Source: Stenotrophomonas sp. SAU14A_NAIMI4_5
GTDB taxonomy: Bacteria; Pseudomonadota; Gammaproteobacteria; Xanthomonadales; Xanthomonadaceae
Direction of reading: 5' to 3'
Length of the DNA stretch: 64,000 bases
NCBI RefSeq assembly: GCF_003086795.1
Contig: NZ_CP026003.1
Coordinates: 640,503 to 704,502 of the forward strand
The notes under the pieces are model-generated. The model made no database searches and had not been told where the DNA came from. It saw only the letters and a list, made by a program, of their open reading frames with translations. Shown in pieces: positions 2,196 through 48,101 of the stretch; position 1 is the stretch's first letter; the number at the start of each line of letters is the position of its first letter. A program made the translations under genes and the position numbers.

Positions 2196-2301
2196 GGGGA
2201 GGCCCGGAGGCCCAGTCAGGACACGCCGTGAACCCATCCATGGGGGCTCGATGGCGCCATCCATGGCGCCAACGGTCCTGCCTGGGCCTCCGGGCCTCCC
2301 C
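2196..2301. repeat. Nested palindrome, copy A: 27-bp arms around a 52-bp core
   Basis: Arms 2196-2222 and 2275-2301 are complementary at 26 of 27 positions. Between them is a core of 52 bp (2223-2274) beginning ACGCCGTGAACCCATCCATG. It is the reverse complement, with some changes, of the core in copies B and D. The arms share no sequence with the arms of the other copies. Confidence 0.8.
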
Positions 2302-2354
2302 TCTAGAGTTTCCTGCGGGCGCGGCCGCATCAAACCCAAGGCGGGGGCAAGGGC

Positions 2355-2396
2355 AAAAGCAAAAGCAAAAGCAAAAGCAGCGGCTTCGGCTTTTGC
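2355..2396. repeat. (AAAAGC)4 hexamer repeat with a small hairpin
   Basis: Four perfect AAAAGC units occupy 2355-2378. GCAAAAGC (2371-2378) pairs with GCTTTTGC (2389-2396) and is followed by CTCTT, so on the plus strand it could act as a weak terminator about 190 bases after the peptidase gene. Confidence 0.6.
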
Positions 2397-2476
2397 TCTT
2401 GAATTTGAATTTGATCTTTCTTCCTCCGGCTACCCCGCGGGAGAGGGAAGGCGCTGGAAATGTCTGAAGCGCTGGG

Positions 2477-2568
2477 GAGCGGGGGCGGCGCAAAACCGTG
2501 AGGCGCATGGATGCGCCGACCGAGCCCCCATGGATGGGTTTACGGCGTGTTTTGCGCCGCCCCCGCTC
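2477..2568. repeat. Nested palindrome, copy B: 20-bp perfect arms around a 52-bp core
   Basis: Arms 2477-2496 and 2549-2568 are perfectly complementary, and with a few mismatches the pairing extends about ten bases further on each side. The core at 2497-2548 is 52 bp, starts CGTGAGGCGCATGGATGCGC and ends TTTACGGCGT. It has the same length and largely the same sequence as the core of copy D. Confidence 0.8.
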
Positions 2569-2621
2569 ACCAACGCCCACGCAGAACCAACCGCCAGCCT
2601 CCAAACCCGGGTAGCCAACGC

Positions 2622-2651
2622 AAAAAAAAGGACGGCGCCTCAGCGCCGTCC
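2622..2651 (-). terminator. Rho-independent terminator of the rhlE-type helicase gene
   Basis: GGACGGCGC (2630-2638) and GCGCCGTCC (2643-2651) form a 9-bp stem with a 4-base loop. Reading the minus strand, the stem is followed by eight T (complement of 2622-2629). It lies about 50 bases beyond the helicase stop codon. Confidence 0.9.
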
Positions 2652-2699
2652 CTCGATAGCCCCCCGCGCAGCGGGAAGCGCAACAACCGTCAGCTGCGA

Positions 2700-4124
2700 T
2701 CAGCCAGCGCGACCGCCGCCGTTGCCGCCCTGGCCGCGGCCACGGCCGCCACCACCGTTGCCGCCACCGCCACGACGCTGGCCCTGACCCGCGCCCGCAC
2801 CGGCACGCTGCTGGCCATTGCCACCGCCCTCGCGACGGCCGCCACCGGACTTCTTCGGGCCCGCATGCGCATGGCGCGGCGCATCACCGTGCGGACGACG
2901 CGCGTGGCTCTTGCGCGGTGCGCGCTCGCCGGTGTCGTGCTCGGCCTTGCCCGGTGCACTGTTGCCCCAGCGGATCGGCGTCTGCAGCTCGAAGCCCGGA
3001 ACGTCGCGGATGTCCATGTCGCGGCCCAGCAGGCGGGTGATCGCACGCAGCAGCTTCACTTCGTCCTGCGCCACCAGCGAAATCGCCTGGCCAGTCGCAC
3101 CGTTGCGGCCGGTACGGCCGATGCGGTGCACATAATCCTCGGCCACCATCGGCAGGTCGAAGTTGATCACCTTCGGCAGCTCGTTGATGTCGATACCGCG
3201 CGCGGCGATGTCGGTGGCCACCAGCACGGTCACGCGACCGGCCTTGAAGTCACCCAGTGCACGCAGGCGCTGGCCCTGGCTCTTGTTGCCGTGGATGGCC
3301 GCGGTCTTGATGCCGGACTTTTCCAGGAACGAGGCCAGCTTGTCGCTGCCGTGCTTGGTACGGGCGAAGACCAGGGTCTGCTCGCGGCTGTCCTGCGCCA
3401 GCAGGTGCAGCAGCAGGTCGCGCTTGCGGCTGCCATCGACCGGATGCACGCGGTGGGTGATGGTTTCGGCCACGGTGTTCTTCGGCGTCACCTGGATCTG
3501 TTCCGGGTTGCGCATGAACTCCAGCGCCAGCTGGCGGATGTTGTCCTCGAAGGTGGCCGAGAACAGCAGGGTCTGGCGGTTCTGCTTCGGCAGCTTGGCC
3601 AGGATGCGCTTGATCGACGGCAGGAAGCCCATGTCGAGCATGCGGTCGGCTTCGTCCAGGATCAGCACTTCGATGCCGGACAGGTCGACGCTGCGACGCT
3701 CCAGGTGGTCGATCAGGCGGCCCGGGCAGGCGACCAGCAGGTCGACGCCGCGGCGCAGGATGTCCAGCTGGTTGCCCATGCCGACGCCGCCGTAGATGCA
3801 GGCGCTGGGGATGCGCAGGTACTTGCTGTAGCCGCGCAGGCTGTCATGCACCTGGGTGGCCAGTTCGCGGGTCGGGGCCAGGATCAGCGCACGCGGCTTG
3901 CGCGGGCCGCTGCGCACTTCCTGCGAAGCGGTGCCCAGGTGCTGCAGCAGCGGCAGGCCGAAGGCGGCGGTCTTGCCGGTACCGGTCTGTGCACCGGCCA
4001 GCAGGTCGCGACCGGCCAGCGCCAGCGGGATCGCCTGCTGCTGGATCGGGGTCGGGTTTTCGTAGCCCTGCTCGGCGAGCGCGCGCAGCAGGAAAGGCGC
4101 AAGGCCCAGGGATTCAAAAGACAT
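2700..4124 (-). CDS. rhlE: DEAD-box ATP-dependent RNA helicase, RhlE type
   Basis: A 474-aa cytoplasmic RNA helicase expected to remodel structured RNA, for example in ribosome assembly or mRNA decay. The Q-motif region (NPTPIQQQAIP, 23-33) precedes motif I AQTGTGKT (45-52), PTREL (84-88), DEAD (157-160), SAT (189-191) and a helicase C domain with HRIGRTGR. The C-terminus is a basic, glycine-rich RGG-like tail ending in repeated GGGG and GRGQ segments, typical of an RNA-binding extension. The start MSFESLGLAPFLLRALAEQG is the usual RhlE N-terminus. The gene stands alone with its own terminator and a leader region of up to about 680 bases. RhlE is preferred over DbpA/CsdA, but paralogues are common. 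Confidence 0.93.
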   Translation of the reverse strand: MSFESLGLAPFLLRALAEQGYENPTPIQQQAIPLALAGRDLLAGAQTGTGKTAAFGLPLLQHLGTASQEVRSGPRKPRALILAPTRELATQVHDSLRGYSKYLRIPSACIYGGVGMGNQLDILRRGVDLLVACPGRLIDHLERRSVDLSGIEVLILDEADRMLDMGFLPSIKRILAKLPKQNRQTLLFSATFEDNIRQLALEFMRNPEQIQVTPKNTVAETITHRVHPVDGSRKRDLLLHLLAQDSREQTLVFARTKHGSDKLASFLEKSGIKTAAIHGNKSQGQRLRALGDFKAGRVTVLVATDIAARGIDINELPKVINFDLPMVAEDYVHRIGRTGRNGATGQAISLVAQDEVKLLRAITRLLGRDMDIRDVPGFELQTPIRWGNSAPGKAEHDTGERAPRKSHARRPHGDAPRHAHAGPKKSGGGRREGGGNGQQRAGAGAGQGQRRGGGGNGGGGRGRGQGGNGGGRAG

Positions 4125-4415
4125 TGAGATTGCTCCAAGTACAAGAAACGCCTGTCCGAACGGACAGACGGGGGCAGATCAAACTGATCGGCTGACTCGG
4201 AGCGTTCCCGTGAACCGCGCTGCGAGAATTGGGTGCAGCCGGCACGGAGCGCAGGCTGGAATGCGTGACGAACGGCGTCGGAGTGGGGGCGGGCGAAGTG
4301 GGCGGACCCAGGTCGCCGGCGATCCCGGAGGGAAACGGACGGCCGCTGCAGACCCCGCAAGTCTAAACGATCTTCAATACCCCACGCAAAATCCCCTGTT
4401 CAGGTAGGGGGGGCT

Positions 4416-4434
4416 GCAGGGCTTGCAGCCCTGC
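4416..4434. repeat. GCAGGGCT-N3-AGCCCTGC palindrome, copy 1
   Basis: Perfect 8-bp arms with a TGC loop. The sequence that follows (ACCCGCAGAATCAACG) is the same as after the copy at 47585-47603. With the inverted copy at 4681-4699 it brackets nested palindrome E. Confidence 0.8.
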
Positions 4435-4479
4435 ACCCGCAGAATCAACGGCAACGGCAACGGCAGAAGCGGGCTATCC

Positions 4480-4618
4480 GTGGGATGGCGGGGTGGGTCC
4501 GGGCGCTTGCGAAGCACTGCTTCGCGAACGCCCGAACGCACAGCCGCCAGCGGCTGGGCCGGACCCCGGAGGGGGGTTTACGGCGTCCCCGCAAACCCAC
4601 AGTGCCCCGCCATCCCAC
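4480..4618. repeat. Nested palindrome, copy E (variant with partial left arm)
   Basis: GTGGGATGGCGGGG (4480-4493) pairs perfectly with CCCCGCCATCCCAC (4605-4618). The right arm, 4587-4618, contains the arm of copy D almost letter for letter. The left arm lacks the matching inner part, and the core keeps only the TTTACGGCGT end. The rest is replaced by a GC-rich segment (about 4500-4575) shared with copy C, including a GCGAAGCA/TGCTTCGC hairpin. Confidence 0.7.
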
Positions 4619-4649
4619 GGAATGCCGCTTCGGCTCTTGATCTTCAGGT

Positions 4650-4672
4650 TGCCGGCCAGCGGCCGGCACTAC
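4650..4672. repeat. SMAG-like palindrome (GTAGTGCCGGCC type)
   Basis: TTGCCGGCCAGCGGCCGGCA followed by CTAC; the reverse complement begins GTAG, the head described for SMAG repeats of S. maltophilia. The same sequence recurs at 50430-50453. Confidence 0.75.
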
Positions 4673-4680
4673 CAGCAGGT

Positions 4681-4699
4681 GCAGGGCTGCAAGCCCTGC
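4681..4699. repeat. GCAGGGCT-N3-AGCCCTGC palindrome, copy 2
   Basis: Inverted partner of 4416-4434, with GCA in the loop. It is preceded by AGGT and followed by CGAACCCCCCACTAC, the mirror of the GTAGGGGGG before the first copy. The pair therefore behaves as two inverted GTAG-headed elements. Confidence 0.75.
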
Positions 4700-4808
4700 C
4701 GAACCCCCCACTACGGTAGGGTGGAGCGGATGCCGCGCTGCAGCTTGGCTAACCCGCGCATTTGATTACACTTGAAACTTGTTTGCCCACGACTCCGGAC
4801 ACCCACCC

Positions 4809-5798
4809 ATGAAGCTTGGTTCTTTGAAGGAAGGCGGCCGCGACGGCACCCTGATCGTCGTCTCGCGTGACCTGCGCCTCGGCGTCCGCGCCACCGGCAT
4901 TGCCGCCACCCTGCAGCAGGCCCTGGAAGACTGGAGCCACATCGCCCCGCGCCTGAACGCCCTGTACGAATCGCTGAACGCCGGCGACGCCGATGGCGTG
5001 TTCGACCTCGACCCGCAGGCCCTGGCCGCGCCGATGCCGCGCGCCTATGAATTCGTCGATGGCAGCGCCTACCTCCCGCACGTCGAGCGCGTGCGCCGCG
5101 CCCGTGGCGCCGAGGTGCCGGAAAGCTTCTACACCGACCCGCTGATGTACCAGGCCACCAGCGCCGGCTTCCATGGCCCGCGCGATGCGGTCAAGGTGGT
5201 CAGCGAGGAGTACGGCATCGACCTGGAAGCCGAGATCGTGGTCATCACCGATGACGTGCCGATGGCCGCCACCCCGGAACAGGCCGCCGGCCACATCCAG
5301 CTGGTCGGCCTGGTCAACGATGTCTCGCTGCGCAACCTGATCCCGGGCGAACTGGCCAAGGGCTTCGGCTTCCTGCAGTCCAAGCCGCGCTCGGCGCTGT
5401 CGCCTGTGTTCGTCACCCCCGATGAGCTGGGCACTGCCTGGCAGGACAGCAAGGTGCACCTGCCGCTGCTGACCCACATCAACGGGAAGTGGTTCGGTGC
5501 GCCGGAAGCCGGCGTGGACATGCAGTTCAACTTCGCCCAGCTGGTCGCGCATGCGGCCAAGACCCGTCCGCTGGGCGCCGGCACCATCGTCGGCTCGGGC
5601 ACCATCGCCAACGAGGACACCAGCAAGGGCGCTTCCTGCTTCGCCGAACAGCGCGTGGTGGAAACCCTGCGCGACGGCAAGCCGAGCACGCCGTTCATGT
5701 CCTTCGGCGACGTGGTGCGCATCGAGATGCTCGACGCCGCCGGCAACAGCATCTTCGGTGCGATCGAACAGCGCATCGAGCAGGCGGCCAAGCCCTGA
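4809..5798 (+). CDS. Fumarylacetoacetate hydrolase-family protein
   Basis: A 329-aa cytoplasmic enzyme of the FAH fold, expected to split fumarylacetoacetate into fumarate and acetoacetate at the end of tyrosine/homogentisate breakdown. The ExE and downstream Asp metal-ligand pattern is visible in DLEAEIVVITDDV, and the late region carries GAGTIVGSGTIANED and SFGDVVRIEM, normal for the family. ATG 4809 (MKLGSLKEGG) is chosen over the upstream ATG at 4779 because family members start at this point. The next gene begins 14 bases after the stop and encodes maleylacetoacetate isomerase, the preceding step of the same pathway, which supports the fumarylacetoacetase role. A related acylpyruvase activity cannot be excluded. 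Confidence 0.85.
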   Translation: MKLGSLKEGGRDGTLIVVSRDLRLGVRATGIAATLQQALEDWSHIAPRLNALYESLNAGDADGVFDLDPQALAAPMPRAYEFVDGSAYLPHVERVRRARGAEVPESFYTDPLMYQATSAGFHGPRDAVKVVSEEYGIDLEAEIVVITDDVPMAATPEQAAGHIQLVGLVNDVSLRNLIPGELAKGFGFLQSKPRSALSPVFVTPDELGTAWQDSKVHLPLLTHINGKWFGAPEAGVDMQFNFAQLVAHAAKTRPLGAGTIVGSGTIANEDTSKGASCFAEQRVVETLRDGKPSTPFMSFGDVVRIEMLDAAGNSIFGAIEQRIEQAAKP

Positions 5799-5812
5799 GC
5801 GTGGAGGCGGCG

Positions 5813-6496
5813 ATGGACATCCTGGTTGACGACGGCCCGGTCGACGACGGCCTCGTGCTGTACACCTACTGGCGATCCAGCGCCGCCTACCGCGTGCGCA
5901 TCGGCCTGCAGCTGAAGGGCCTGGCCTGGGAGGGCCGGCCGGTGCACCTGGTGCGCGACGGTGGCGAGCAGCATGCCGACGCCTATGCCGCGCTCAACCC
6001 GCAGCAGCTGGTGCCCACCCTGCTGCATGACGGGCATGCGTTCACCCAGTCGCTGGCGATCCTCGAATACCTCGATGAGCGCTACCCGCAGGTGCCGCTG
6101 CTGCCGGCCGATGCGGTCGGCCGCGCGCGGGTGCGGTCACTGGCCCAGCTGGTGGCCTGCGACATCCATCCGATCAACAACCTGCGGGTGATGCAGTACC
6201 TCGAACGCCGCCTGGAAGCGCCGGCCGACGCGCGCACGCAGTGGACCCTGCACTGGATGTCTGAAGGCTTCGCGGCGATGGAAGCGATGCTCGCGGACAG
6301 TGCGGATACCGGCGTGTTCTGCCACGGTGACCGCCCCGGCCTGGCCGACATCTGCCTGCTGCCGCAGCTGTACAACGCGCACCGCTTCGGTCTGGACCTG
6401 GCGCCATACCCGACGCTGCGCCGCATCGAAGCGGCCTGCCAGGCGCTGGACGCCTTCGAGCGCGCCCGCCCGGAAAACCAGCCCGACGCAGGCTGA
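5813..6496 (+). CDS. maiA: Maleylacetoacetate isomerase (zeta-class GST)
   Basis: A 227-aa glutathione-dependent enzyme that isomerises maleylacetoacetate to fumarylacetoacetate, the substrate of the neighbouring hydrolase. The zeta-class active-site signature appears as SSAAYRVR near residue 23. The thioredoxin-like domain continues through NPQQLVPTL and QSLAILEYLDERYP, followed by the helical GST C-domain with DICLLPQLYNAHRFG. ATG 5813 is favoured over an in-frame GTG at 5801 because GGAGG (5803-5807) lies at the right distance from the ATG. The two genes probably form one transcript. The stop is followed directly by a SMAG palindrome. Confidence 0.9.
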   Translation: MDILVDDGPVDDGLVLYTYWRSSAAYRVRIGLQLKGLAWEGRPVHLVRDGGEQHADAYAALNPQQLVPTLLHDGHAFTQSLAILEYLDERYPQVPLLPADAVGRARVRSLAQLVACDIHPINNLRVMQYLERRLEAPADARTQWTLHWMSEGFAAMEAMLADSADTGVFCHGDRPGLADICLLPQLYNAHRFGLDLAPYPTLRRIEAACQALDAFERARPENQPDAG

Positions 6497-6510
6497 CACG
6501 CCGCTTCGCT

Positions 6511-6570
6511 CGCCGGGCATGGCCCGGCGCTACCGGTCATCGTCCGGTGGTAGCGCCGGACGATGACCGG
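6511..6570. repeat. SMAG element joined to a perfect 15-bp inverted repeat
   Basis: 6511-6532 is the CGCCGGGCATGGCCCGGCGC-TAC palindrome. It abuts a second palindrome with perfect 15-bp arms (6533-6547 and 6556-6570) and an 8-base loop containing GTAG. The second palindrome lies inside the 3' end of the minus-strand glycosylase gene and supplies its last codons and, with the adjoining element, its TAG stop. Confidence 0.85.
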
Positions 6571-8029
6571 CGGATTCCACGTCGTCCGCCTGCAAACGGC
6601 GCAGGTCATCGCGGAACAGCCGGTAGGCCTCCTCACGCCGGGCGTCGTCGCCTTGCCGCAGCACCCACGCCGGGTGCACGGTGGCATAGCCGCGGGTACC
6701 GTCTTCCAGCGTGTGCCAGCGACCGCGGTCGCGTGACAGCTGGAAGCCTGCGCCGAACACCGAGGAAGCAGCGGTCGCGCCCAGGCAGACGATGACCTGC
6801 GGCCGTACCCGCGCGATCTCGCCCAGCAGCCACGGCTGGCAGGCCCGCACATGCCGGCTTTCGGGGCGCTTGTGCAGGCGCACCTTGCCGCGCCGCTCAT
6901 GGTGGAAGTGCTTCACCGCATTGGTCAGGTACAGCGTGGCGCGGTCGATGCCGAGTTCGGCCAGGGCACGGTCCAGCAGCTGGCCGGCCGGGCCCGCGAA
7001 GGGACGGCCGCAGAGATCCTCGGTATCGCCGGGTTGTTCGCCGATCACCATCACCCGTGCATCGGCCGGGCCCTGGCCGAACACCACCTGGGTGGCCGGC
7101 TCCCACAGCGGGCACTGGCGGCAGCCGGCGGCCTGGGCACGCAGCGCATCGAGGCTGTCCGCGCTTGATCCCGGTGATGGCAGCACCGCCGGTCGCTGCG
7201 GAATCTTCCGCTGCGGGGCCTGCGCGGGGCGGTCGTGCATTTCCTGCACGCGGTCGGCCGCATCGCGCACCAGCCCAGGCAGCAGCTGCGCCTCGGGCAG
7301 GTGGCGCCAGTACCGCGCCGGCATCTCCTGCAGCATCATCCGGGTATTCAAGCGGGCCGGGTTGAAGATGCTTGCGTAGTAGGTCTGCCACAGCGATTCG
7401 CGCGCATCCTCGGCCGGTGCATCTTCGCGACGGGCACCGGGCCCGAAGGCCAGGGCCTGGCCATCCCAGTGCACGCTGCGGCCGGGGGTGAGGATGGCCC
7501 AGCGCATGCCGGCGAAGCGGCGCGCGAAGAACGGCGCGACACGCTCGACGATGTGGTGGTCCGGCTCGAACCACGCAATGAAGGCATCGGTCTGCCCGGG
7601 CACTTCGCGGAAGCGCACGAAGGCCTTCATCTTGTGGGTGTCGCGGCGCACCGCCTGGGCCAGTGCCATCGCCCGCAGCACGTCGGCATCGGCCGGGTTG
7701 GACAGCACGCTGCGCTCGCCATGGGCGATGCGCCACAGCAGCCGGTACAGCAGGGCCAGGCGCTGCGGCTCGCGATGGCACAGGCAGGTCGCGGCCAGTT
7801 CGATGAAATCGCGCGGCACGCTGGGCGCGCTGGCGTCGGCGGGCAGGGGAGCCCCCTGCACCGATGGCGCGTCCAGCAGCGAGGCCTCGCTGCCTTCCAG
7901 CCAGTCCAGCTGCGCCGGTGCCACGCCGCGCAGCAGCGCCTCGCGCGCGGCATCGCGCCAGGCGTCCAGCGACCACGGCGGGTCCACCCGCAGCGACCAG
8001 CGCTGTGCGTCAGGCGGCGGGCGGTGCAT
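6530..8029 (-). CDS. DUF4130 domain fused to UdgX-like uracil-DNA glycosylase
   Basis: A 499-aa protein with two parts. Residues 1-270 resemble the DUF4130 domain that is often joined to this glycosylase; residues 295-480 form a family 4/UdgX-type uracil-DNA glycosylase. Visible motifs are CRQC (303-306) and C397, suited to a 4Fe-4S cluster; GEQPG (330-334); and VHPAW (451-455). KVRLH (382-386) sits where UdgX has KRRIH, whose histidine bonds covalently to the abasic site after uracil removal, so H386 may do the same. ATG 8029 is chosen because it overlaps the upstream radical SAM stop by 20 bases and begins MHRPPPDAQRWSLRVDPPWS; the longer in-frame ATG at 8089 gives a low-complexity extension. 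The C-terminal tail after about residue 484 comes from a repeat element. Confidence 0.88.
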   Translation of the reverse strand: MHRPPPDAQRWSLRVDPPWSLDAWRDAAREALLRGVAPAQLDWLEGSEASLLDAPSVQGAPLPADASAPSVPRDFIELAATCLCHREPQRLALLYRLLWRIAHGERSVLSNPADADVLRAMALAQAVRRDTHKMKAFVRFREVPGQTDAFIAWFEPDHHIVERVAPFFARRFAGMRWAILTPGRSVHWDGQALAFGPGARREDAPAEDARESLWQTYYASIFNPARLNTRMMLQEMPARYWRHLPEAQLLPGLVRDAADRVQEMHDRPAQAPQRKIPQRPAVLPSPGSSADSLDALRAQAAGCRQCPLWEPATQVVFGQGPADARVMVIGEQPGDTEDLCGRPFAGPAGQLLDRALAELGIDRATLYLTNAVKHFHHERRGKVRLHKRPESRHVRACQPWLLGEIARVRPQVIVCLGATAASSVFGAGFQLSRDRGRWHTLEDGTRGYATVHPAWVLRQGDDARREEAYRLFRDDLRRLQADDVESAGHRPALPPDDDR

Positions 8030-9293
8030 CAAACAGCGAGCCCTGTCGTGGCGGCGGCGCCAGCTGTGCACGCAACGCCGCCGGATCATCCAGCGCCTTG
8101 CGCGGGTGGTGGTCGGCCAGCAGCACGAACGGCAGCAGCTTGCTCATCGGGGCCTTCAACCGGGCCACGTCGGCCACCCGCAGGCGGCCGTGCCGGCGCG
8201 CCATCAGCACCCGCTTCACGTTGCGCACGCCCAGCCCGGGCACGCGCAGCAGCAGTTCCTTCGGCGCGCGGTTCAGGTCCACCGGGAAGCGCTCGGGGTG
8301 GCGGATCGCCCAGGCCATCTTCGGGTCGATGTCCAGGTCCAGCATGCCGTCCTGGGTGGTATCGGTGATCTCCTCCACGCCGTAACCGTAGAAGCGCAGC
8401 AGCCAGTCGGCCTGGTACAGGCGATGCTCGCGCTGCAGCGGGGGCGGCTGCAGCGGCAGCTGGCGGCTGGCATCGGGAATGGGGCTGAAGGCCGAGTAAT
8501 ACACCCGGCGCATGCGGTAGTTGCCGTACAGCGCGTCGGCACTGGCCAGGATCTGCTGGTCATTGGCCCCGTCGGCGCCGACGATCATCTGCGTGCTCTG
8601 CCCGGCCGGGGCGAAGCGCGGCGGGCGAGGGCGCGCGCTGCGGGTGGCCGTTGGCGCGACCACGGCCGGCGCCTTGCGTGCTTCCTTGGCTTCCTCGATG
8701 CGCCAGCGCAGTTCGCCCATCGCGCCGCGGATCGAGTGCACGGTCTTTTCCGGCGCCAGCGCACTCAGCCCGGCCTCGGTGGGCAGTTCGACGTTGATCG
8801 ACAGGCGGTCGGCGTAGCGACCGGCGCTGGCCAGCAGCTCGGGCGACGCTTCGGGAATGGTCTTGAGGTGGATGTAGCCGGCATAGCGGTGGTCCTCGCG
8901 CAGCTGCCGCGCCACTTCCACCATCTGTTCCATGGTGTAGTCGGCATTGCGGATGATGCCGCTGGAAAGGAACAGGCCCTCGATGTAGTTGCGCTTGTAG
9001 AAATCCAGGGTCAGCGCGACCACTTCGTCCACGCTGAAGCGCGCCCGCGCCACGTTGCTGGAGACGCGGTTCACGCAGTAGGCGCAGTCGTAGACGCAGA
9101 AGTTGGTCAGCAGGATCTTCAGCAGCGACACGCAGCGGCCATCCGGCGTGTAGCTGTGGCAGATGCCCATGCCTTCGGTGCTGCCGATGCCGCCGCTGGC
9201 GCGCGAGTCGCGCTTGCCCGCGCCGCTGGAGGCGCAGGAGGCATCGTACTTGGCGGCGTCGGCGAGGATGGCCAGCTTGCGGATGGTTTCCAT
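8010..9293 (-). CDS. Radical SAM protein of the UDG-linked DNA modification/repair family
   Basis: A 427-aa cytoplasmic protein. The CX3CX2C cluster motif is clear (C66, C70, C73 in NFCVYDCAYC), so it should bind a 4Fe-4S cluster and cleave S-adenosylmethionine. The C-terminal part has a helix-hairpin-helix-like stretch, LLLRVPGLGVRNVKRVL, suggesting DNA contact. This family is known to be encoded beside DUF4130/uracil-DNA glycosylase proteins, as here, where the two genes overlap by 20 bases and must be co-transcribed. The reaction has not been established to my knowledge; repair or modification of DNA is inferred from neighbours. An 11-bp-arm palindrome lies 18 bases upstream of the ATG. 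Confidence 0.87.
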   Translation of the reverse strand: METIRKLAILADAAKYDASCASSGAGKRDSRASGGIGSTEGMGICHSYTPDGRCVSLLKILLTNFCVYDCAYCVNRVSSNVARARFSVDEVVALTLDFYKRNYIEGLFLSSGIIRNADYTMEQMVEVARQLREDHRYAGYIHLKTIPEASPELLASAGRYADRLSINVELPTEAGLSALAPEKTVHSIRGAMGELRWRIEEAKEARKAPAVVAPTATRSARPRPPRFAPAGQSTQMIVGADGANDQQILASADALYGNYRMRRVYYSAFSPIPDASRQLPLQPPPLQREHRLYQADWLLRFYGYGVEEITDTTQDGMLDLDIDPKMAWAIRHPERFPVDLNRAPKELLLRVPGLGVRNVKRVLMARRHGRLRVADVARLKAPMSKLLPFVLLADHHPRKALDDPAALRAQLAPPPRQGSLFDAPPAA

Positions 9294-9311
9294 TGAGGAA
9301 ACCTACGGACA

Positions 9312-9336
9312 GGCGGTCTCATTGGATGAGACCGCC
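9312..9336. promoter_or_regulatory. Perfect 11-bp-arm palindrome before the radical SAM/UdgX operon
   Basis: GGCGGTCTCAT (9312-9322), loop TGG, ATGAGACCGCC (9326-9336). It ends 18 bases before the radical SAM ATG on the minus strand, a suitable place for an operator or a leader hairpin. No T-run follows on the minus strand, so it is not a standard terminator for pilU. The binding factor is unknown. Confidence 0.5.
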
Positions 9337-9355
9337 CCTTAACCCTTCAGGATTC

Positions 9356-9432: not shown

Positions 9433-9442
9433 TCCGTGCGGC

Positions 9443-12239: not shown

Positions 12240-12265
12240 CGTGTATCTGTCGAAGGAGGTCCATC

Positions 12266-40205: not shown

Positions 40206-40213
40206 GGGCGTTC

Positions 40214-40275: not shown

Positions 40276-40292
40276 AGCGCAGCGGACACGGC

Positions 40293-40934: not shown

Positions 40935-41857
40935 TTGGGTTCGAACTCCTTCGGTGCGTCGCGGCCCAGCAGGTAGCGCGCGGGGTTGTTCTCGAGGCGG
41001 TCGCTGACCCGGCGCAGGTCGCGGATCAGGCCACGCAGTTCATTCAGCGTCGGGCCGAGCTGGCCCAGGCCATCGTTGGCGAAGCTGTTGATGGCCGCGC
41101 GGTTCTCGCCGAGGATCGAATCGGCATTGCCGGCCGCCGAATCGAGCTTGCCCAGGGTGGCGTCGAGCTTGTCGATGATGCCCGGCAGCTGCTGCACCAG
41201 ATTCTTGTCCAGGCGCTCGATGGTGCCGTTGGTGGTCTTCAGCGTGGTGTCCAGGCTGCGTGCGGCATCGCGCGCGCTGAGCAGCAGCGCCTGGGTGCCC
41301 TGGTCACGGTCGGCCAGGCCGCCGCTGATGGTTTCCAGGTTGGCCAGGGTGGCGTTGATCGAGGCCACGTTGCGGTCACTGAGGACTTGATCCATGCGTT
41401 CGACGATGCGGTTGGCCACATCGGTGATGTTCTGCAGCGCCGACGGCGTGGTCGGGATGATCGGCGCCGGATCCTTGTTGACCATGGTCAGCGTCGGCGC
41501 CTGCGGGGTGCCGCCACTGAGCTGGATGATCGACGGACCGGTCAGGCTGGTGATGGCCAGCTTGGCGCGGGTATCGGTCTTGACCGGCGTGTTGGAGTTC
41601 AGGCGGATGCGTGCGACCACCTGGCGCGGGTCGTCCGGCACCAGGTTCAGCTCGGTGATCGAACCGACCGCGATGCCGTTGTATTGCACCGGGCTGCCGA
41701 CCGACAGGCCGGTGACCGCCTCGCGGAACACCACGCGGTATTCCTGCCAGGTACGGTCGGAGGAGTACTTGGCCGCCCACAGGCCGAAGGCCAGCAGGGC
41801 CAGGCCGGTGATCAGGGTGAACGCGCCGATCAGCACGTAATTGGCTTTGGTTTCCAT
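40931..41857 (-). CDS. mlaD: MlaD-like MCE-domain protein
   Basis: A 308-aa protein with one N-terminal membrane anchor (YVLIGAFTLITGLALLAFGLW) and an MCE domain (about 40-120, FREAVTGLSVGSPVQYNGIAVG), which forms the lipid-carrying ring in the periplasm. A helical C-terminal part (about 150-300) extends from it. It is third in the mlaE-mlaF-mlaD-lipoprotein operon. The separate E. coli-type mlaC/mlaB genes are not present here. Confidence 0.9.
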   Translation of the reverse strand: METKANYVLIGAFTLITGLALLAFGLWAAKYSSDRTWQEYRVVFREAVTGLSVGSPVQYNGIAVGSITELNLVPDDPRQVVARIRLNSNTPVKTDTRAKLAITSLTGPSIIQLSGGTPQAPTLTMVNKDPAPIIPTTPSALQNITDVANRIVERMDQVLSDRNVASINATLANLETISGGLADRDQGTQALLLSARDAARSLDTTLKTTNGTIERLDKNLVQQLPGIIDKLDATLGKLDSAAGNADSILGENRAAINSFANDGLGQLGPTLNELRGLIRDLRRVSDRLENNPARYLLGRDAPKEFEPK

Positions 41858-41860
41858 GGC

Positions 41861-42688
41861 TCAGGCACTCTTGATCTGTTCGCCGCGTGCAGCACGCGCG
41901 CGGGGTCCGTGGAAATATTCCTGGATCCACGGATGGTCCAGTGTCTCGATCTCCGGCAGCGGCGCATTGGCCACCACCTTGCGGTCGGCGATCACCGCCA
42001 CCCGGTCGCAGATCGCATACAGCGTGTCCAGGTCGTGGGTGATCAGGAACACGGTCAGGCCCAGCGCTTCCTGCAGGGTCTTGATCAGGCGGTCGAAGGC
42101 GGCTGCGCCGATCGGGTCCAGGCCGGCGGTGGGTTCGTCCAGGAACAGCAGCGGCGGGTCCAGCGCCAGCGCCCGTGCCAGGCCGGCGCGCTTGCGCATG
42201 CCGCCGGACAGCTGCGAGGGCAGCTTGTTGATCGCATCGGCGGGCAGGCCGGCCAGCTTCACCTTCAGCAGCGCCAGTTCGTAATGCCAGCGCTCGGGCA
42301 GCTCGCGGTGGTGTTCCTTCAGCGGCACCTGCACGTTCTCGCCCACGGTCAGCGAGGAGAACAGGGCGCCATCCTGGAACAGCACGCCGGTGTTGCGCTC
42401 GATGTGCAGGCGGCTTTCGGCATCGTCGGCGCGTGCGTCGCGGCCGAGCACCTCGATCTGCCCCTCGTCGGGCACCCGCAGGCCGAGGATCGAGCGCATC
42501 AGCACCGATTTGCCGGTGCCCGAACCGCCGACCACGCCGAGGATCTCGCCGCGGCGCACGTCCAGGTCCAGGCCTTCGTGCACGGTCTGGCTGCCGAAGC
42601 GGTTGACCAGCCCACGCACGCGGATGGCCAGGTCGTGGCCCTGGTCGTCCTGCATGGCGGCATCGGTGGGGGTGTCGTGTGCGTTCAT
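41861..42688 (-). CDS. mlaF: MlaF-like ABC transporter ATP-binding protein
   Basis: A 275-aa ATPase of the MCE transporter. Walker A is GGSGTGKSVLMRSIL, the signature LSGGMRKRAGLARAL and Walker B LLFLDEPTAGLDP; FGSQTVHEGLDLDVRRGEIL is the normal beginning of the fold. It drives phospholipid movement between membranes with the permease encoded one base upstream. Confidence 0.93.
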   Translation of the reverse strand: MNAHDTPTDAAMQDDQGHDLAIRVRGLVNRFGSQTVHEGLDLDVRRGEILGVVGGSGTGKSVLMRSILGLRVPDEGQIEVLGRDARADDAESRLHIERNTGVLFQDGALFSSLTVGENVQVPLKEHHRELPERWHYELALLKVKLAGLPADAINKLPSQLSGGMRKRAGLARALALDPPLLFLDEPTAGLDPIGAAAFDRLIKTLQEALGLTVFLITHDLDTLYAICDRVAVIADRKVVANAPLPEIETLDHPWIQEYFHGPRARAARGEQIKSA

Positions 42689-42689
42689 G

Positions 42690-43811
42690 TCACCAGTCCA
42701 TGTGCATGAACCACAACGCCGCGAAGGCGTCGATGATGATGACCAGCGAGATGGTCTGCACCACGCTGGAGGTGGTGCGTTCGCCCACCGACTGCGCCGT
42801 GCCTTCCACCTTCAGGCCTTCCAGGCAGCCGATCAGGCCGATGATCAGCGCGAACACCGGCGCCTTCGACAGGCCCACCAGCATGTGCCGCACTTCCATC
42901 GTTTCGTGCATGCGCGCGATGTACATCTGCGGCGGGATGTCCAGGTCGAACGCGCCGACGGTGATGCCGCCGGCCAGGCCGGCGATCATCGCGATGAAGG
43001 TCAGCAGCGGCAGGGTCACCAGCAGGGCGAGCAGGCGCGGCAGCACCAGCAGGTCGACCGGGTCCAGGCCCAGCGTGCGCATCGCATCGATTTCCTCGCG
43101 CGCCTTCATCGCGCCGATCTGCGCGGTGAACGCACTGGCGGTGCGGCCGGCCAGCACGATGGCGGTGAGCAGCACGGCGAACTCGCGCAGGAAAGCGATG
43201 TTGACCAGTTCGACCACGTAGATCTCCGCGCCGAAGTCGCGCAGGATGGTCGAGCCGAGGAAGGCGATGACCGCGCCGACCAGGTAGGACAGCAGGGCCA
43301 CCAGCGGCACCGCGTCCAGCCCCACCTGTTCCATCTGGTGCACGGTGGCGGTCAGGCGGAAGCGCCGCGGTTCCTTCACCAGCCGCGCGGCCTTCACCAG
43401 GTTCTCGCCGAGGAAGCTGCACAGCGCCTTGATGTTGTGGCCGGTGGCATGGACGCTGACGCCGAGGCGTTCGAGCGCGGCCAGCACGCCGAAATCGCGC
43501 TTGGCCTTGGGACGGTCGTCGGCCACTTCCTCGATGGTGCACACCAGCGCCTGGTGGTCCGGGCGGAACTGCAGTGCCTGTTCGCCGAGGTCGGCACGAT
43601 GGGCCACGCGCAGCACCTGCAGCACGCCGGCCGAGTCCAGCTGTTCGATGCCGGTGGCATCGATGCCGGTCAACGTGTCGGGAATACCACGCAGCACCTC
43701 GGCCGCGTCCAGCGCGGTCTTCAGGGTCCAGTGCCCGGACAGGCGGATCAGCCCGGGATCGTGGGCGTCCTGTTCAAGCCGGGGGGCGTGGTTCGGGGTC
43801 ATGGGGGCCAT
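42690..43811 (-). CDS. mlaE: MlaE-like permease with N-terminal STAS domain
   Basis: A 373-aa inner-membrane permease. The first about 110 residues look like a STAS domain (GIDATGIEQLDSAGVLQVL), doing the job of the separate MlaB in E. coli. The rest is MlaE with about five membrane spans and AEIYVVELVNIAFLREFAVL and AFTAQIGAMKAREEIDAM. ATG 43811 (MAPMTPNHAPRLEQ) is chosen; a second ATG lies nine bases on. It heads the operon and is divergent from the ThrE-like gene. Confidence 0.9.
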   Translation of the reverse strand: MAPMTPNHAPRLEQDAHDPGLIRLSGHWTLKTALDAAEVLRGIPDTLTGIDATGIEQLDSAGVLQVLRVAHRADLGEQALQFRPDHQALVCTIEEVADDRPKAKRDFGVLAALERLGVSVHATGHNIKALCSFLGENLVKAARLVKEPRRFRLTATVHQMEQVGLDAVPLVALLSYLVGAVIAFLGSTILRDFGAEIYVVELVNIAFLREFAVLLTAIVLAGRTASAFTAQIGAMKAREEIDAMRTLGLDPVDLLVLPRLLALLVTLPLLTFIAMIAGLAGGITVGAFDLDIPPQMYIARMHETMEVRHMLVGLSKAPVFALIIGLIGCLEGLKVEGTAQSVGERTTSSVVQTISLVIIIDAFAALWFMHMDW

Positions 43812-43903
43812 TCGGTTCGCAGCATAACCGTTTCGTCCTGCGCGCCGCGTCGAACCGGGATGAATTTCTCCTGCCGGGCCCCGCGTGGGTAATACTACGG
43901 CGC

Positions 43904-45163
43904 ATGTCTGCAGACGCTCACACGATCCCCACGCCCCCGGCCACCTACGCACAGCGCGTGGCATTCGTTTCCGAGATCGCCGGGCGCCTGCACAGCTATG
44001 GCACCACCGCACAGCGCCTGGAAACGGCCGTGGTGGCCCTGGCGCGCCAGCTCGATCTCGATTGCGAGCCGTGGTCCAACCCCACCGGCATCATCCTCAG
44101 CTTCAGCGATCCGGCACAGGCCATCGGTTCCAGTGACATCACCCGGGTCATCCGCCTGGCACCGGGCGAGAACGACCTGCACAAACTGAGCGTGGCCGAC
44201 CGCATCGCCGAGGAAGTGTCCAACGGCCGCATGAGCATCGCCCAGGGCCATACCGCGCTGCGCCAGCTGGACAAGGATCCCGGCCGGCGCGGCAAGCTGC
44301 GCACCATCCTGTCCTTCAGCCTGGGCGCGGCCGGCGTGGCCGGCATGTGGAAACTGCCGTGGCTGGATATCGCCACCGCCGGTGTCATCGGTCTGATGAT
44401 CGGCCTGCTGGGCATGGTCACCGACCGCCGCCCGGCCACCCGCGAGGCCGCCGAAGCACTGGCCGCGCTGCTGGCGGGCATGGTCGCCACGCTGGTGGCT
44501 GCCTTCATCGGCGCGCTCAATCTCAATACCGTCATCATTGCTTCGCTGGTGGTGCTGCTGCCCGGCATGTCGCTGACCAATGCGGTCAATGAACTGGCCA
44601 GCCAGCACTGGGTATCGGGTACCGCGCGTTTCGCCGGTGCGCTGACCACCATCATGAAACTCAGCGTCGGCGCGATGATCGCGGTGACCCTGGCCGATGT
44701 GCTGGGCCTGGAGCCGGTGATCCGTGCCGCGCGGCCGCAGGGGCCGTGGGTGGAATGGGGCTCGCTGCTGACCGCGGCATTCGCCTTCGCCATGCTGTTC
44801 AAGGCCAACCGTCGTGATTATCCGTGGGTGATGGCGGCCTCGGTGGCCGGTTATGCCATTTCCAAATTCGGTGGCCACGCCTGGGGCGCACCGGCGGGTA
44901 TTTTCCTGTCCGCGATGCTGCTGACCGCCGGCGGTAATCTGTTCGGCCGCCTGGTCGGGCGCCCGGGCGCGATCATCCGCCTGCCGGGCATCATCATGAT
45001 GGTGCCGGGCAGCACCAGCCTGCGCGGCGTGCTGACCCTGGTGCAGCAGCAGGACGTGGGCGCCGGGCAGAGCGTGTTCCTCACCGTGCTCAACGTTGTG
45101 ATGGCGCTGGTGGCCGGCCTGCTGTTCGGCAACCTGCTGATGCCGGCCCGCAAAACCCTGTGA
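43904..45163 (+). CDS. Threonine/serine exporter family protein (ThrE-like)
   Basis: A 419-aa inner-membrane protein with about ten spans. The N-terminal half matches the cytoplasmic-plus-membrane ThrE domain (SYGTTAQRLETAVVALARQL, SVADRIAEEVSNG); the C-terminal half is the second ThrE domain (GAPAGIFLSAMLLTAGGNLF, MMVPGSTSLRG). It is predicted to export threonine, serine or similar small metabolites. ATG 43904 begins MSADAHTIPTPPATYAQRVA; the open frame upstream lies antisense to mlaE. A strong terminator follows. Confidence 0.87.
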   Translation: MSADAHTIPTPPATYAQRVAFVSEIAGRLHSYGTTAQRLETAVVALARQLDLDCEPWSNPTGIILSFSDPAQAIGSSDITRVIRLAPGENDLHKLSVADRIAEEVSNGRMSIAQGHTALRQLDKDPGRRGKLRTILSFSLGAAGVAGMWKLPWLDIATAGVIGLMIGLLGMVTDRRPATREAAEALAALLAGMVATLVAAFIGALNLNTVIIASLVVLLPGMSLTNAVNELASQHWVSGTARFAGALTTIMKLSVGAMIAVTLADVLGLEPVIRAARPQGPWVEWGSLLTAAFAFAMLFKANRRDYPWVMAASVAGYAISKFGGHAWGAPAGIFLSAMLLTAGGNLFGRLVGRPGAIIRLPGIIMMVPGSTSLRGVLTLVQQQDVGAGQSVFLTVLNVVMALVAGLLFGNLLMPARKTL

Positions 45164-45169
45164 CGATGC

Positions 45170-45200
45170 AAAAAAAACGCCGGCTTTCGCCGGCGTCTTT
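45170..45200. terminator. Terminator between the exporter and H-NS-family genes
   Basis: A run of A ending at 45177, then CGCCGGC-TTT-CGCCGGCG around 45178-45195, then TCTTT. It can act in both directions, between two convergent genes. Confidence 0.85.
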
Positions 45201-45222
45201 CATTTCAACCTGATATTCGGCC

Positions 45223-45609
45223 TTACGCCTTCTTGATCAGGAAATCTTCCGGCTTCTTGCCGCCCTTGGCGGTCAGTTCGGCCATCCAGCGCGGCTGCTT
45301 GCCACGGCCGGTCCAGGTTTCCTTCGGGTTGGCCGGATTACGGTACTTCGGGGCAACCTTGCCCAGCTTGCGGCCGGCGGTCTTCGCCGGTGCCTTGGTA
45401 GCCTTCGTCGCCTTGCGGGCGCGCGGGGCAGCCGGGGCATCACCGAACAGTTCCTCGATGGTGTAACCCTCGGCCTTGGCCAGCTTGCTCAGCTGGGCGC
45501 GTACCTTGGTGATCGGGCGACGCTTGGCCACGATGGTCTGCTGCTTCTTGGCGGTACGGATCAGGGCGCCCAGCTCGCGTGCCGACAGGCCGCTCAGGTC
45601 GATGCTCAT
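45223..45609 (-). CDS. H-NS-family nucleoid-associated protein
   Basis: A 128-aa DNA-binding protein. The N-terminal part (about 1-60) is a coiled-coil oligomerisation region, the middle is a lysine/alanine/threonine-rich linker (KATKATKAPAKTAG), and the C-terminal part has the H-NS DNA-binding motif TWTGRGKQPRW. It should silence AT-rich or transferred DNA, for example the less GC-rich O-antigen genes of this window. Xanthomonas relatives include the Xrv proteins. It is a single-gene unit with its own terminator; the leader at 45610-45720 is relatively AT-rich. Confidence 0.92.
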   Translation of the reverse strand: MSIDLSGLSARELGALIRTAKKQQTIVAKRRPITKVRAQLSKLAKAEGYTIEELFGDAPAAPRARKATKATKAPAKTAGRKLGKVAPKYRNPANPKETWTGRGKQPRWMAELTAKGGKKPEDFLIKKA

Positions 45610-45797
45610 CTACGATTACTCCGGAAACTGAATTAGGGACAGGGACGAGCCGGTCCGTGGCGTCGCGGGACAGAATAATGATGAATTAATGCCAGCACAA
45701 ACATCGGCAGTCGCGACATGGCGGCCAGATGGCCCCAATGCGTCTATTTTGACCGGATTATGTCCGGCCGCATTTTGCTGGCGCGCACAAAAAAGGC

Positions 45798-45825
45798 AAA
45801 AAAAGACCGGGGCAGGCCCCGGTCT
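45798..45825 (-). terminator. Rho-independent terminator of proS
   Basis: AGACCGGGGC (45804-45813) pairs with GCCCCGGTCT (45816-45825). On the minus strand it is followed by seven T (complement of 45798-45804). It lies just beyond the proS stop. Confidence 0.92.
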
Positions 45826-45831
45826 CTCTGG

Positions 45832-47523
45832 TCAGCCCTGCAGTCGCTGCAGCAGGGTGGTCTTGTCCAGGCTTTCCGCCTCGCTGGCACGGCGCGAACG
45901 GTATTCGAACGTGCCGGCGGCCAGGCCGCGTTCGCTGACCACGACCCGGTGCGGGACGCCTATCAGTTCCATGTCGGCGAACATGGCGCCCGGGCGCAGG
46001 CCACGGTCGTCCAGCGCCGCATCCAGGCCCGCATCGCGCAGTTCCTGCAGCAGGCCGGCCGCCGCTTCGGCCACGCCGGCGTCGCCCTTCGGGTTGATCA
46101 CGCACACTACCACCTGCCACGGCGCCATCGCCTCGGGCCAGATGATGCCGGCGTCATCGTGGTTCTGTTCGATCGCCGCAGCGACCACGCGGGAAATGCC
46201 GATGCCGTAGCAGCCCATCGCCATCACCGCGGCCTTGCCGTTCTCGTCCAGCACGGTGGCGTCGAGCGCGGCGGCGTACTTGCGGCCCAGCTGGAAGACG
46301 TGGCCGACCTCGATGCCGCGGGCGATCTTCAGCTCGCCGCCATCGACGGCGCGGTCACCGGCCTGCACGTTGCGGATGTCAGCCACTTCCGGCTCGGCCA
46401 GGTCGCGGCCCCAGTTGACGCCGGCCAGGTGGAAACCGGCCTCATTGGCGCCGACCACGAAGTCGGCCATGGCCGCCACTTCACGGTCGGCGATCACGCG
46501 GATGGCCTTGGCCGGGGCGACCGGGCCGAGGAAGCCCGGCACGCTGCCCAGGTACTCGGCGATCTCCGCCTCGCTGGCGAAGCGCTGGTCTTCCAGGCCG
46601 GCGACCTTGCCCAGCTTGATCTCGTTGACGTCATGGTCGCCGCGGACCAGGGCCAGCACGAAGCCGGCTTCGGTCATCAGCGCCACCGACTTCACGGTGC
46701 GGGTCAGGTCGAGGCCGAGCAGGGCAGCGACGTCCTCGCAGGTCTTCTGCGTGGGGGTTTCCACCTTGCGGATGGCTTCAGTGGCAGCCGCGCGCGGTGC
46801 CGGGTCAGCGGCCACGGCCGCTTCCATGTTGGCGGCATAATCCGAGCCGGTGGAGAACACCAGCGCGTCTTCGCCCGAATCGGCGATCACGTGGAATTCC
46901 TGCGAGGCATCACCACCGATGGCACCGGAATCGGCCTGGACCATGCGGAAATCGAGGCCGAGGCGAGTGAAGATGCGGCTGTAGGCCGCCTTCATGTTTT
47001 CGTATTCGCGCACCAGGCAGTCATCGTGCAGGTGGAACGAATACGCATCCTTCATCAGGAATTCGCGCGCGCGCATCACGCCGAAACGCGGGCGGATCTC
47101 GTCGCGGAACTTGGTCTGGATCTGGTAGAAGTTGACCGGCAGCTGTTTGTAGCTGGACAGCTCGCTGCGCGCGAAATCGCAGGCCGCTTCTTCAGCGGTG
47201 GGGCTGTAGCAGAAGGTCTGTTCCTTGCGGTCCTTGATCTTCAGCAGCTGCGGGCCGAACTTCTCCCAGCGGCCGGTCTGCTCCCACAGTTCCTTCGGCT
47301 GGATGGTCGGAATCTGGAATTCGACGGCGCCGGCGCGGTCCATTTCCTCGCGCACGATGCGCTCGACCTTGCGCAGCACGCGCAGGCCCAGCGGCGACCA
47401 GGTGTACAGGCCCGATGCCAGCTTGCGGATCATGCCCGCCCGCAGCATCAACCGGTGGCTGGTCAGCTCGGCATCGCTGGGGGTTTCCTTGGTGGTGTGC
47501 AGGTGGAACTGGGAGAGGCGCAT
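45832..47523 (-). CDS. proS: Prolyl-tRNA synthetase
   Basis: A 563-aa class II aminoacyl-tRNA synthetase of the bacterial type with an editing insertion. [20 protein letters not shown] is the usual start; motif 2 is seen around [21 protein letters not shown], the YbaK-like editing domain spans about 230-390, and motif 3 is in [13 protein letters not shown]. The C-terminal anticodon-binding domain follows. It stands alone with its own terminator; a large repeat block precedes it. Confidence 0.97.
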
Positions 47524-47584
47524 CGGCGGCTTCGGATAACGGCAGAGACGCCTATTCTGCCAGCCCGGCCGGGGGTTTGTACCG

Positions 47585-47603
47585 GCAGGGCTTGCAGCCC
47601 TGC
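47585..47603. repeat. GCAGGGCT-N3-AGCCCTGC palindrome, copy 3
   Basis: Same as 4416-4434, including the following ACCCGCAGAATCAACG. With 48158-48176 it brackets two nested palindromes. Confidence 0.8.
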
Positions 47604-47648
47604 ACCCGCAGAATCAACGTCAACGTCAAAAGCTGGCTATCCGTGGGT

Positions 47649-47832
47649 AGGCGGGGTGGGTCCGGTTGAGGGGGACGCCGTAAACCCCCCTCCGGGGTCC
47701 GGCCCAGCCGCTGGCGGCTGTGCGTTCGGGCGCTTGCGAAGCAGTGCTTCGCAAGCAAAGCGCCCTCACCCATGGGGGCTTGGTCGCGCCATCCATGGCG
47801 CTCACACCCCCTCAACCGGACCCACCCCGCCT
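47649..47832. repeat. Nested palindrome, copy C: 26-bp perfect arms, enlarged core
   Basis: Arms 47649-47674 and 47807-47832 are perfectly complementary. The 132-bp interior begins ACGCCGTAAACCC and ends with CATGGGGGCTTGGTCGC and CATGGCGCTCAC, the two ends of the 52-bp core. It is interrupted by about 80 bp that also occurs in copy E (for example CCGGGGTCCGGCCCAGCCGC) and that carries its own GCGAAGCA/TGCTTCGC hairpin. Confidence 0.8.
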
Positions 47833-47862
47833 TCGACAGGCCTCCGCGATCTGTCGGAGCAC

Positions 47863-47901
47863 GGGGTCGGATCCCGTTGCTGCGCAACGGGCTCTGACCC
47901 C
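47863..47901. repeat. 39-base palindrome, type GGGGTC...GACCCC, copy 2
   Basis: Arms 47863-47880 and 47884-47901 around TGC; the unit is the exact reverse complement of 29662-29700. Confidence 0.85.
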
Positions 47902-47931
47902 ATCTGAATATCGATATCTGAGAGAAAAATC

Positions 47932-47955
47932 GTGTCGACCAAGGTCGACACCTAC
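47932..47955. repeat. GTGTCGACC palindrome ending in CTAC
   Basis: GTGTCGACC (47932-47940), AA, GGTCGACAC (47943-47951), then CTAC. The inverse strand reads GTAG first, so it is another GTAG-headed palindrome; a GTGCCAACC variant is at 51356-51379. Confidence 0.8.
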
Positions 47956-48005
47956 CAAAAGCTGCACATCGCCCTTACCAACGGCCGCGTGAAACTGTCG
48001 AAGGC

Positions 48006-48101
48006 GGGGCACTGTGGGTTTGCGGGGTGTGAGCCGCATGGATGCGGCGACCAAGCCCCCATGGACGGGTTTACGGCGTCCCCGCAAACCCACAGTGCCC
48101 C
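48006..48101. repeat. Nested palindrome, copy D: 22-bp perfect arms around a 52-bp core
   Basis: Arms 48006-48027 and 48080-48101 are perfectly complementary. The core 48028-48079 (TGTGAGCCGCATGGATGCGG ... TTTACGGCGT) has the same length as in copies A and B. The right arm and following CATCCCACGGAATGCCG also occur at copy E. Confidence 0.82.

Follow-up and report, generated by a model that had tools for sequence, protein, structure and literature searches.

CsrA/RsmA is usually modelled as a regulator that is titrated by a few dedicated small RNAs (sRNAs), and the sponge RNAs of this system are encoded by one or a few dedicated genes per genome. Variable arms are also known from integron attC sites. 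GGA hairpins are generally paired because CsrA is a dimer (PMC4333381), and the TwoAYGGAY RNAs (RF01731), whose sources are the human gut, Gammaproteobacteria, and Clostridiales (PMC2864571), are predicted to bind CsrA (PMC4333381); dispersed repeats are not spoken of in the available account of TwoAYGGAY (PMC2864571). Ysr224 (RF02770), a Yersinia sRNA, is among the most abundant sRNA annotations in one survey (PMC9029176), and the Xanthomonas RNA RsmU derives from the comEA 3′-untranslated region and binds RsmA (PMC7694677). Repetitive extragenic palindromes (REPs) span 20–40 bp (PMC3733652). Transcripts derived from miniature inverted-repeat transposable elements (MITEs) are known from Coxiella (PMC5896051), where the available text mentions neither CsrA nor GGA. 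The RNAs listed from pull-downs with RsmA, RsmE, and RsmI of Pseudomonas putida include intergenic ones next to ISPpu8 as well as a "long palindromic region" (PMC7937890). Here, a 64,000-nt stretch of Stenotrophomonas sp. SAU14A_NAIMI4_5 (contig NZ_CP026003.1, positions 640,503–704,502; the whole stretch is called the window) was analyzed for three palindromes, copies A, B, and D, in which a common core lies between complementary arms.

The palindromes are probably (at a probability of about 0.6) a CsrA/RsmA-binding RNA module that is carried by dispersed REP- or MITE-like repeats. The strand with the ATGGAT loops folds into P1, a long stem that closes the module, plus the hairpins P2 and P3, both of which have an ANGGA loop closed by a C-G pair. 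The constant 52 nt between the arms keeps the GGA motifs of the two loops at a distance of 23 nt, at which a single CsrA/RsmA dimer could hold the pair. For P1 it would be enough to remain a stem, which leaves its sequence free to change if both sides change, and it does change, by compensatory mutation and by exchange between copies. The module would be transcribed, bind CsrA/RsmA, and act mainly by sequestering the protein through its transcribed copies. A literature search on this repeat, SMAG elements and REPs, CsrA/RsmA RNAs, and CsrA-binding repeats found no description of the family at the level of titles and abstract openings, with subscription papers mostly outside its scope.

Fold, loops, and folded strand of the module

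On the strand with the ATGGAT loop, the module is a three-way junction of P1 (the variable arms) and the hairpins P2 and P3, with a size of ~102 nt and 41 pairs in four helices. A total of 384 distinct copies were gathered through the core. At least 12 of 20 Watson–Crick arm pairs were present in 282 of these at the 52-nt register and in 43 further copies at the 53-nt register, compared with 10.9% of a control in which the arms were mixed between copies; mirrored flanks are in excess, and the sequence-only reading is not refuted by its own test. Filtering the 282 copies for differences at a minimum of 10 of 40 arm positions left 84, and 79 of these were aligned. Within this alignment, 92.0% of the cells are paired (shuffles 58.0%), 1080 cells are still paired with both sides changed (shuffles 335), and the covariation score is 0.833 (shuffles 0.196, slid partners 0.129–0.175); the number of pair types was matched by 10 out of 500 shuffles. 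RNAalifold returned the same fold except for one P2 pair. P3 was used to find the copies and P1 pairing to choose the rows, P2 was used for neither, and both-side changes are found in nine out of ten P2 pairs. A test for tandem G-A pairs (a feature taken from PMC4333381) identified G-A in 13/79 and A-G in 15/79 copies at neighboring P2 positions, with standard pairs in the other copies. The data strongly support selection for a folded stem, one of three origins that had been suggested for the matched arms, and they strongly support the palindromes as a real structured element; beyond the stem, they yield the fold, the loops, and, overall, the strand. Separately, core positions 17 and 20 change jointly from T-A to C-G (TTNAC versus CTTGC, e.g., in loci L215, L233, and L247) without a nested partner, which may be a tertiary contact.

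The end of P2 reads C-ANGGA-Y-G. The loop is ANGGA in 81 and AGGA in 3 of the 84 dissimilar copies, the N is variable (T 51, G 20, A 10, and C 3), and the closing C is present in 82. If copies in other registers and with replaced left sides are included, ANGGA occupies the P2 position in 328 of the 384 distinct copies. The P3 loop is also ANGGA but was required to be so by the search pattern. The ANGGA loop of P2 and P3 is the CsrA/RsmA motif, and two or more such hairpin loops are present, as in the RNAs that act as CsrA/RsmA sponges. The two GGA motifs lie 23 nt apart, a spacing of the two grips that is fixed by the fixed 52 nt between the arms. CsrA (PF02599) was identified in 30 of the 32 genomes tested. 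Ten loci (L002, L019, L030, L055, L111, L188, L233, L235, L264, and L265) hold copies with a replaced left part; in the three for which upstream sequence was read (L030, L002, and L019), the P2 loop carries an insert of ~90 nt with two more hairpins whose loops contain AGGA. Either this is an extended version of the module that offers additional CsrA-type loops, or another repeat may have inserted itself into the loop.

A hairpin in duplex DNA is expected to accumulate G·T and A·C mismatches equally. When read on the ATGGAT strand, the arm mismatches show a G·U to A·C ratio of 143:26 in the 282 copies, 53:11 in the 84 dissimilar copies (binomial p 5e-8, with the cells taken as independent), and 30:4 in 101 copies of the Stenotrophomonas genome itself; purine–purine and pyrimidine–pyrimidine mismatches number 65 and 22, respectively, in the 84 copies. 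Overall, the excess of G·U over A·C points to selection on one folded strand, with individual genomes as exceptions. The natural reading is that the folded molecule is RNA.

An inverted-repeat search found 52 nt between the arms of all three window copies. The common core, AGCCCCCATGGA[T/C]GGGTT[T/C]ACGGCGT, occurs in both orientations, on the minus strand in copy A and on the plus strand in copies B and D, and copy A has GGGTTCACGGCGT instead of GGGTTTACGGCGT; spacing and orientation are as first described from the sequence. The arms of copy A (2196–2222/2275–2301) are 27 nt long and 96% complementary. Copy B (2469–2496/2549–2576) and copy D (48000–48027/48080–48107) each have 28-nt arms with 93% complementarity around a perfect inner part (2477–2496/2549–2568 and 48006–48027/48080–48101, respectively). 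On both strands, the stability of each of the three copies beats all 200 dinucleotide shuffles (z −6.4 to −9.6). The parts of the three copies are as follows (window positions; copy A is named in module sense).

2196–2222, minus strand: copy A, P1 right (3′) arm, 96% complementary to 2275–2301 with 52 nt between
2223–2248, minus strand: copy A, P3 core (AGCCCCCATGGATGGGTTCACGGCGT), genome 642725–642750 minus, 0 mismatches
2249–2274, minus strand: copy A, P2 hairpin with ATGGAT loop, from sequence and folding
2275–2301, minus strand: copy A, P1 left (5′) arm, from the inverted-repeat search
2477–2496, plus strand: copy B, P1 left (5′) arm, perfect match to 2549–2568
2497–2522, plus strand: copy B, P2 hairpin with ATGGAT loop, from sequence and folding
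2523–2548, plus strand: copy B, P3 core (AGCCCCCATGGATGGGTTTACGGCGT), genome 643025–643050 plus, 0 mismatches
2549–2568, plus strand: copy B, P1 right (3′) arm, from the inverted-repeat search
48006–48027, plus strand: copy D, P1 left (5′) arm, perfect match to 48080–48101
48028–48053, plus strand: copy D, P2 hairpin with ATGGAT loop, from sequence and folding
48054–48079, plus strand: copy D, P3 core (AGCCCCCATGGACGGGTTTACGGCGT), genome 688556–688581 plus, 0 mismatches
48080–48101, plus strand: copy D, P1 right (3′) arm, from the inverted-repeat search

Genes in the window were predicted with a hexamer-based gene caller trained on the window. Copies A and B lie between two convergent genes (1–2166 plus and 2700–4124 minus), and copy D lies between two minus-strand genes (45832–47523 and 48188–48607). 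A degenerate partner of copy D at 47765 was rejected (four pattern matches in the window versus 3.7 expected). Other palindromic repeats (GTGCCGACCAACGGTCGGCAC, GTAGATCCACGCCATGCGTGGAT, and GGGGTCAGAGCC...GGATCCGACCCC) and hexamer-like runs share the spacers of the copies (e.g., window 2302–2470 and 47900–48000), and GCAGGGCTGCAAGCCCTGC is found close to gene ends in spacers that hold copies. A palindrome without a spacer at 59517–59574 (29 nt, 90% complementary) has letters unlike this repeat family.

Dispersal, placement, and arm exchange

A search with the 26-nt core (up to three mismatches) identified 72 matches in the 4.57-Mb genome and none with the reversed control; matches to this core were present in 72 of 297 sampled genomes of the Xanthomonadaceae, and a looser core pattern with one mismatch was found in 15 of 274 sampled gammaproteobacterial genomes. 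A covariance model of the module raised the count to 116 in this genome and found matches in at least 53 of the 274 genomes of the class and at least 47 of 221 genera (up to 14 candidates per genome scored). Twenty named genomes, chosen for holding a copy, all contain between 10 and at least 150 matches. Among the matches listed, the genera with copies include Stenotrophomonas, Xanthomonas, Arenimonas, Marinobacter, Microbulbifer, Rheinheimera, Shewanella, Alcanivorax, Pseudomonas, Sodalis, Methylotuvimicrobium, and others.

The first alternative is a selfish DNA repeat, the fold of which serves mobility (as terminal repeats of a MITE or as folded single-stranded DNA recognized by a transposase) and the loops of which are contacts for the enzyme instead of CsrA sites. 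In its favor, a subfamily in Methylotuvimicrobium (genome G543) is bounded by the terminal repeat CAGCAATTCCCA[A/G]TTTG, and its units are flanked by an exact 9-bp direct repeat in 11 out of 20 cases and by a repeat with at most one mismatch, shift allowed, in 17 out of 20 (random-site control, 0 exact and 32 near-exact of 20,000); a 17-mer of this subfamily gives 320 matches with up to two mismatches, versus five for the reversed control. Terminal repeats together with 9-bp duplications make the behavior of this subfamily MITE-like, and the duplication count strengthens the MITE part of the CsrA/RsmA interpretation as well. Copy number is also very uneven, some congeners having no copies, and neighbors recall paired REPs: all 28 pairs less than 1 kb apart in the Stenotrophomonas genome point outward, as do 48 of 68 close pairs in other genomes (11 are tandem and 9 inward). 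However, the G543 copies largely leave the standard register (a minimum of 12 of 20 pairs at offset 26 is reached by only 2 of 21 pattern copies) and their mobility therefore says little about other copies; spread by transposition is seen only in this one subfamily. Copy B as the sole query had no match in 72,556 plasmid and 50,697 phage records, the CsrA motif ANGGA, its N free to vary, is retained in the loops, and orthologous sites hold copies in many species, indicating that most copies here are old. A selfish repeat of this kind is unlikely. The copy flanks read in the Stenotrophomonas genome contain no recognizable terminal repeats or target duplication. Two copies in Pseudomonas locus L168 seem by eye to have longer matching ends; an insertion sequence between them was set aside on a view of the reading frames, no family search having been made.

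The second alternative is a hairpin that acts at gene ends, on the gene strand, as a terminator or as a REP-like stabilizer of mRNA 3′ ends, with incidental loops. A single copy of the 116 in the Stenotrophomonas genome lies inside a called gene, and in 71 copies the module has a gene 3′ end no more than 150 bp from its 3′ side, compared with 8 copies for its 5′ side. This placement fits such a hairpin, as do the stable folding of both strands and the position of Ysr224, which was found as an sRNA, on the gene strand. The bias toward gene ends is present in genome G378 (8 versus 1) and absent in G543 (4 versus 3) and G384 (3 versus 4). In other genomes, where the caller was trained on little DNA, the downstream gene is antisense in 88 of 142 cases, and overlap with a called reading frame is seen for 24 of 163 copies. 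An intrinsic terminator (a hairpin followed by a T run) was rejected because TTTT is rare within 12 nt outside P1 (27 of 366 cases for the gene strand, 3 of 366 for the ATGGAT strand). The overall G·U/A·C asymmetry favors the other strand, the copies keep a fixed orientation that a plain hairpin would not require, and the conservation of the loops is left unexplained. A gene-end hairpin is improbable.

The arms were analyzed within the genome and at orthologous sites. Among the 116 copies of the Stenotrophomonas genome, 101 form at least 16 of 20 Watson–Crick arm pairs at the 52-nt register. Grouping these 101 by their arms gives 22 classes; the four largest contain 35, 22, 12, and 10 copies (79 together), and 15 contain a single copy. 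The claim that the arms are unlike each other thus holds for copies A, B, and D and only partly across the genome; the opposite outcome, arms that fall into a few fixed sequences, is half true, as four arm families hold most copies. Orthologs were anchored for the A/B site in 19 and for the D site in 27 of 30 loci. Within strains, pairing reaches at least 16 of 20 in 12/12 cases at site B, at least 18 in 18/20 at site D, and at least 19 in 11/15 at site A, and from one distinct orthologous copy to another the left arms are unlike at 5.6, 9.9, and 10.6 of 20 positions, respectively. The mean pairing within and across strains is 18.9 and 14.4 for B, 17.2 and 11.2 for D, and 14.6 and 11.4 for A; arm sequences vary from strain to strain, and in most cases the two arms of one strain still match each other. 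Orthologous site D holds several arm families and P2/P3 combinations, and the arms of copy L039+ come from two families. Conversion that keeps arms matched, as the sequence-only reading had put it, therefore survives in the form of exchange between dispersed copies, with different whole arm/core combinations at orthologous sites, and such exchange together with compensatory change explains the arm patterns. The least probable alternative, in which the core copies its target in inverted orientation as it inserts and leaves arms that record the site, draws on the many unusual arms (the 15 single-copy classes); it is not supported and has a very low probability, given that the four families are common to distant loci, that arms at one orthologous site differ between strains by steps, and that the sole subfamily with insertion marks (G543) has direct 9-bp duplications outside its terminal repeats. 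No clean pair of filled and empty sites was found: six orthologs lack the module (L239, L242, L243, L252, L271, and L273) and their sequences differ too much to give a boundary.

Several observations weigh against a CsrA/RsmA-binding RNA. The three-way junction was written down after reading the copies, P1 pairing selected the rows, and the shuffles do not keep the relatedness of the copies; 38 of 41 pairs have any both-side change, a count that is weak evidence because shuffles already give a mean of 34.3. The strand asymmetry is not universal (G·U to A·C 2:4 in G378, 6:3 in G384, and 4:2 in G543, with few mismatches each), which weakens the strand part, and the same asymmetry would be expected of folded single-stranded DNA. 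The minus-strand partner site of D pairs almost as well across strains (15.8) as within them (16.6). CsrA was not found in 2 of the 32 genomes tested, the drafts G269 and G490, both of which have copies, and four congeners with CsrA have no core match, so that the link between the family and CsrA is loose. The main unexplained point for a sponge is that the ATGGAT strand, and with it the loops, is mostly antisense to the nearest gene end (71 versus 8 in this genome), such that a promoter or read-through must be assumed; one reading of this placement is that GGA grips within the mRNA itself are selected against.

On a wider scale it is tentatively proposed, at somewhat less than even odds, that several unrelated families of mobile or once-mobile intergenic repeats in the Gammaproteobacteria carry the same branched RNA with two CsrA/RsmA grips, Ysr224 being the opposite strand of one of them. 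A scattered decoy array of tens to more than 100 copies, shuffled by exchange between copies, would set the level of free CsrA, and the repeats would exploit or shelter under the global regulator. If ~100 dispersed two-site RNAs per genome bind CsrA/RsmA, much binding capacity is missing from the Csr/Rsm circuit as it is modelled for Stenotrophomonas, Xanthomonas, Pseudomonas, Marinobacter, and others, and crosslinking and immunoprecipitation (CLIP) or pull-down reads over repeats, which are often discarded, gain meaning. The family would then clearly exemplify how repeats can carry an RNA fold that binds a protein while the sequence of its stem drifts freely. With the covariance model, existing RNA-seq and pull-down data can be used to test the idea.

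Comparison with known systems

The statement that no described element has this layout was too strong, as two Rfam families, TwoAYGGAY and Ysr224, are related to the module; no Rfam family matches the window at gathering scores. TwoAYGGAY likewise has two adjacent GGA-loop hairpins on an outer stem, and the module has loops of the AYGGAY type, with an N that can also be G, A, or C. Of the three window copies, only copy A is matched by TwoAYGGAY, on the same strand with both loops aligned and below threshold (33.2 bits, E 0.0034, gathering score 43), a match that is weak because this stretch yields comparable E-values with several microRNA families. At the gathering score, TwoAYGGAY was found neither in the window nor in 20 loci nor in 20 more loci, and at E 0.1 it was not found in the 20 further loci.

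Ysr224 matches the module on the opposite strand. It scores 33.8 bits on copy A (gathering score 70) and 25.8–39 bits in 6 of 20 loci, where five out of seven matches lie over an opposite-strand core and two over no core match, and it exceeds the gathering score only in Sodalis locus L163 (82.9 versus 70). The complement of the Ysr224 consensus has two ANGGA loops. In contrast to the module, Ysr224 is annotated as a single sRNA, and the strand of this annotation lacks the GGA loops.

Bacterial MITEs, REPs, and SMAG elements are, like the module, dispersed intergenic palindromes. REPs and SMAG elements are palindromes of 20–40 bp with a GTAG or CGTC tag, whereas the module is ~102 nt long with a branched, covarying fold. 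The palindromes that flank ISPpu8 in P. putida KT2440 resemble it, compared by description only, as intergenic and partly long palindromic RNAs that are bound by Rsm proteins in vivo.

RsmU was rejected as a member of the family: the comEA 3′ flanks that were read have GGA hairpins and no core match, and two distant core matches in L280 and L283 lie elsewhere in these loci, outside the comEA 3′ flanks. Downstream of the comEA frame of the Stenotrophomonas genome (L285), the 3′ flank resembles RsmU in its many hairpin-like stretches with GGA and is by its sequence a candidate for a single-copy RsmA sponge of this genome. With CsrB/CsrC, RsmX/Y/Z, and RsmU the module shares several GGA hairpins of the kind that hold CsrA/RsmA dimers, and it differs from sponges of the CsrB/RsmU type in its ~100 dispersed copies per genome.

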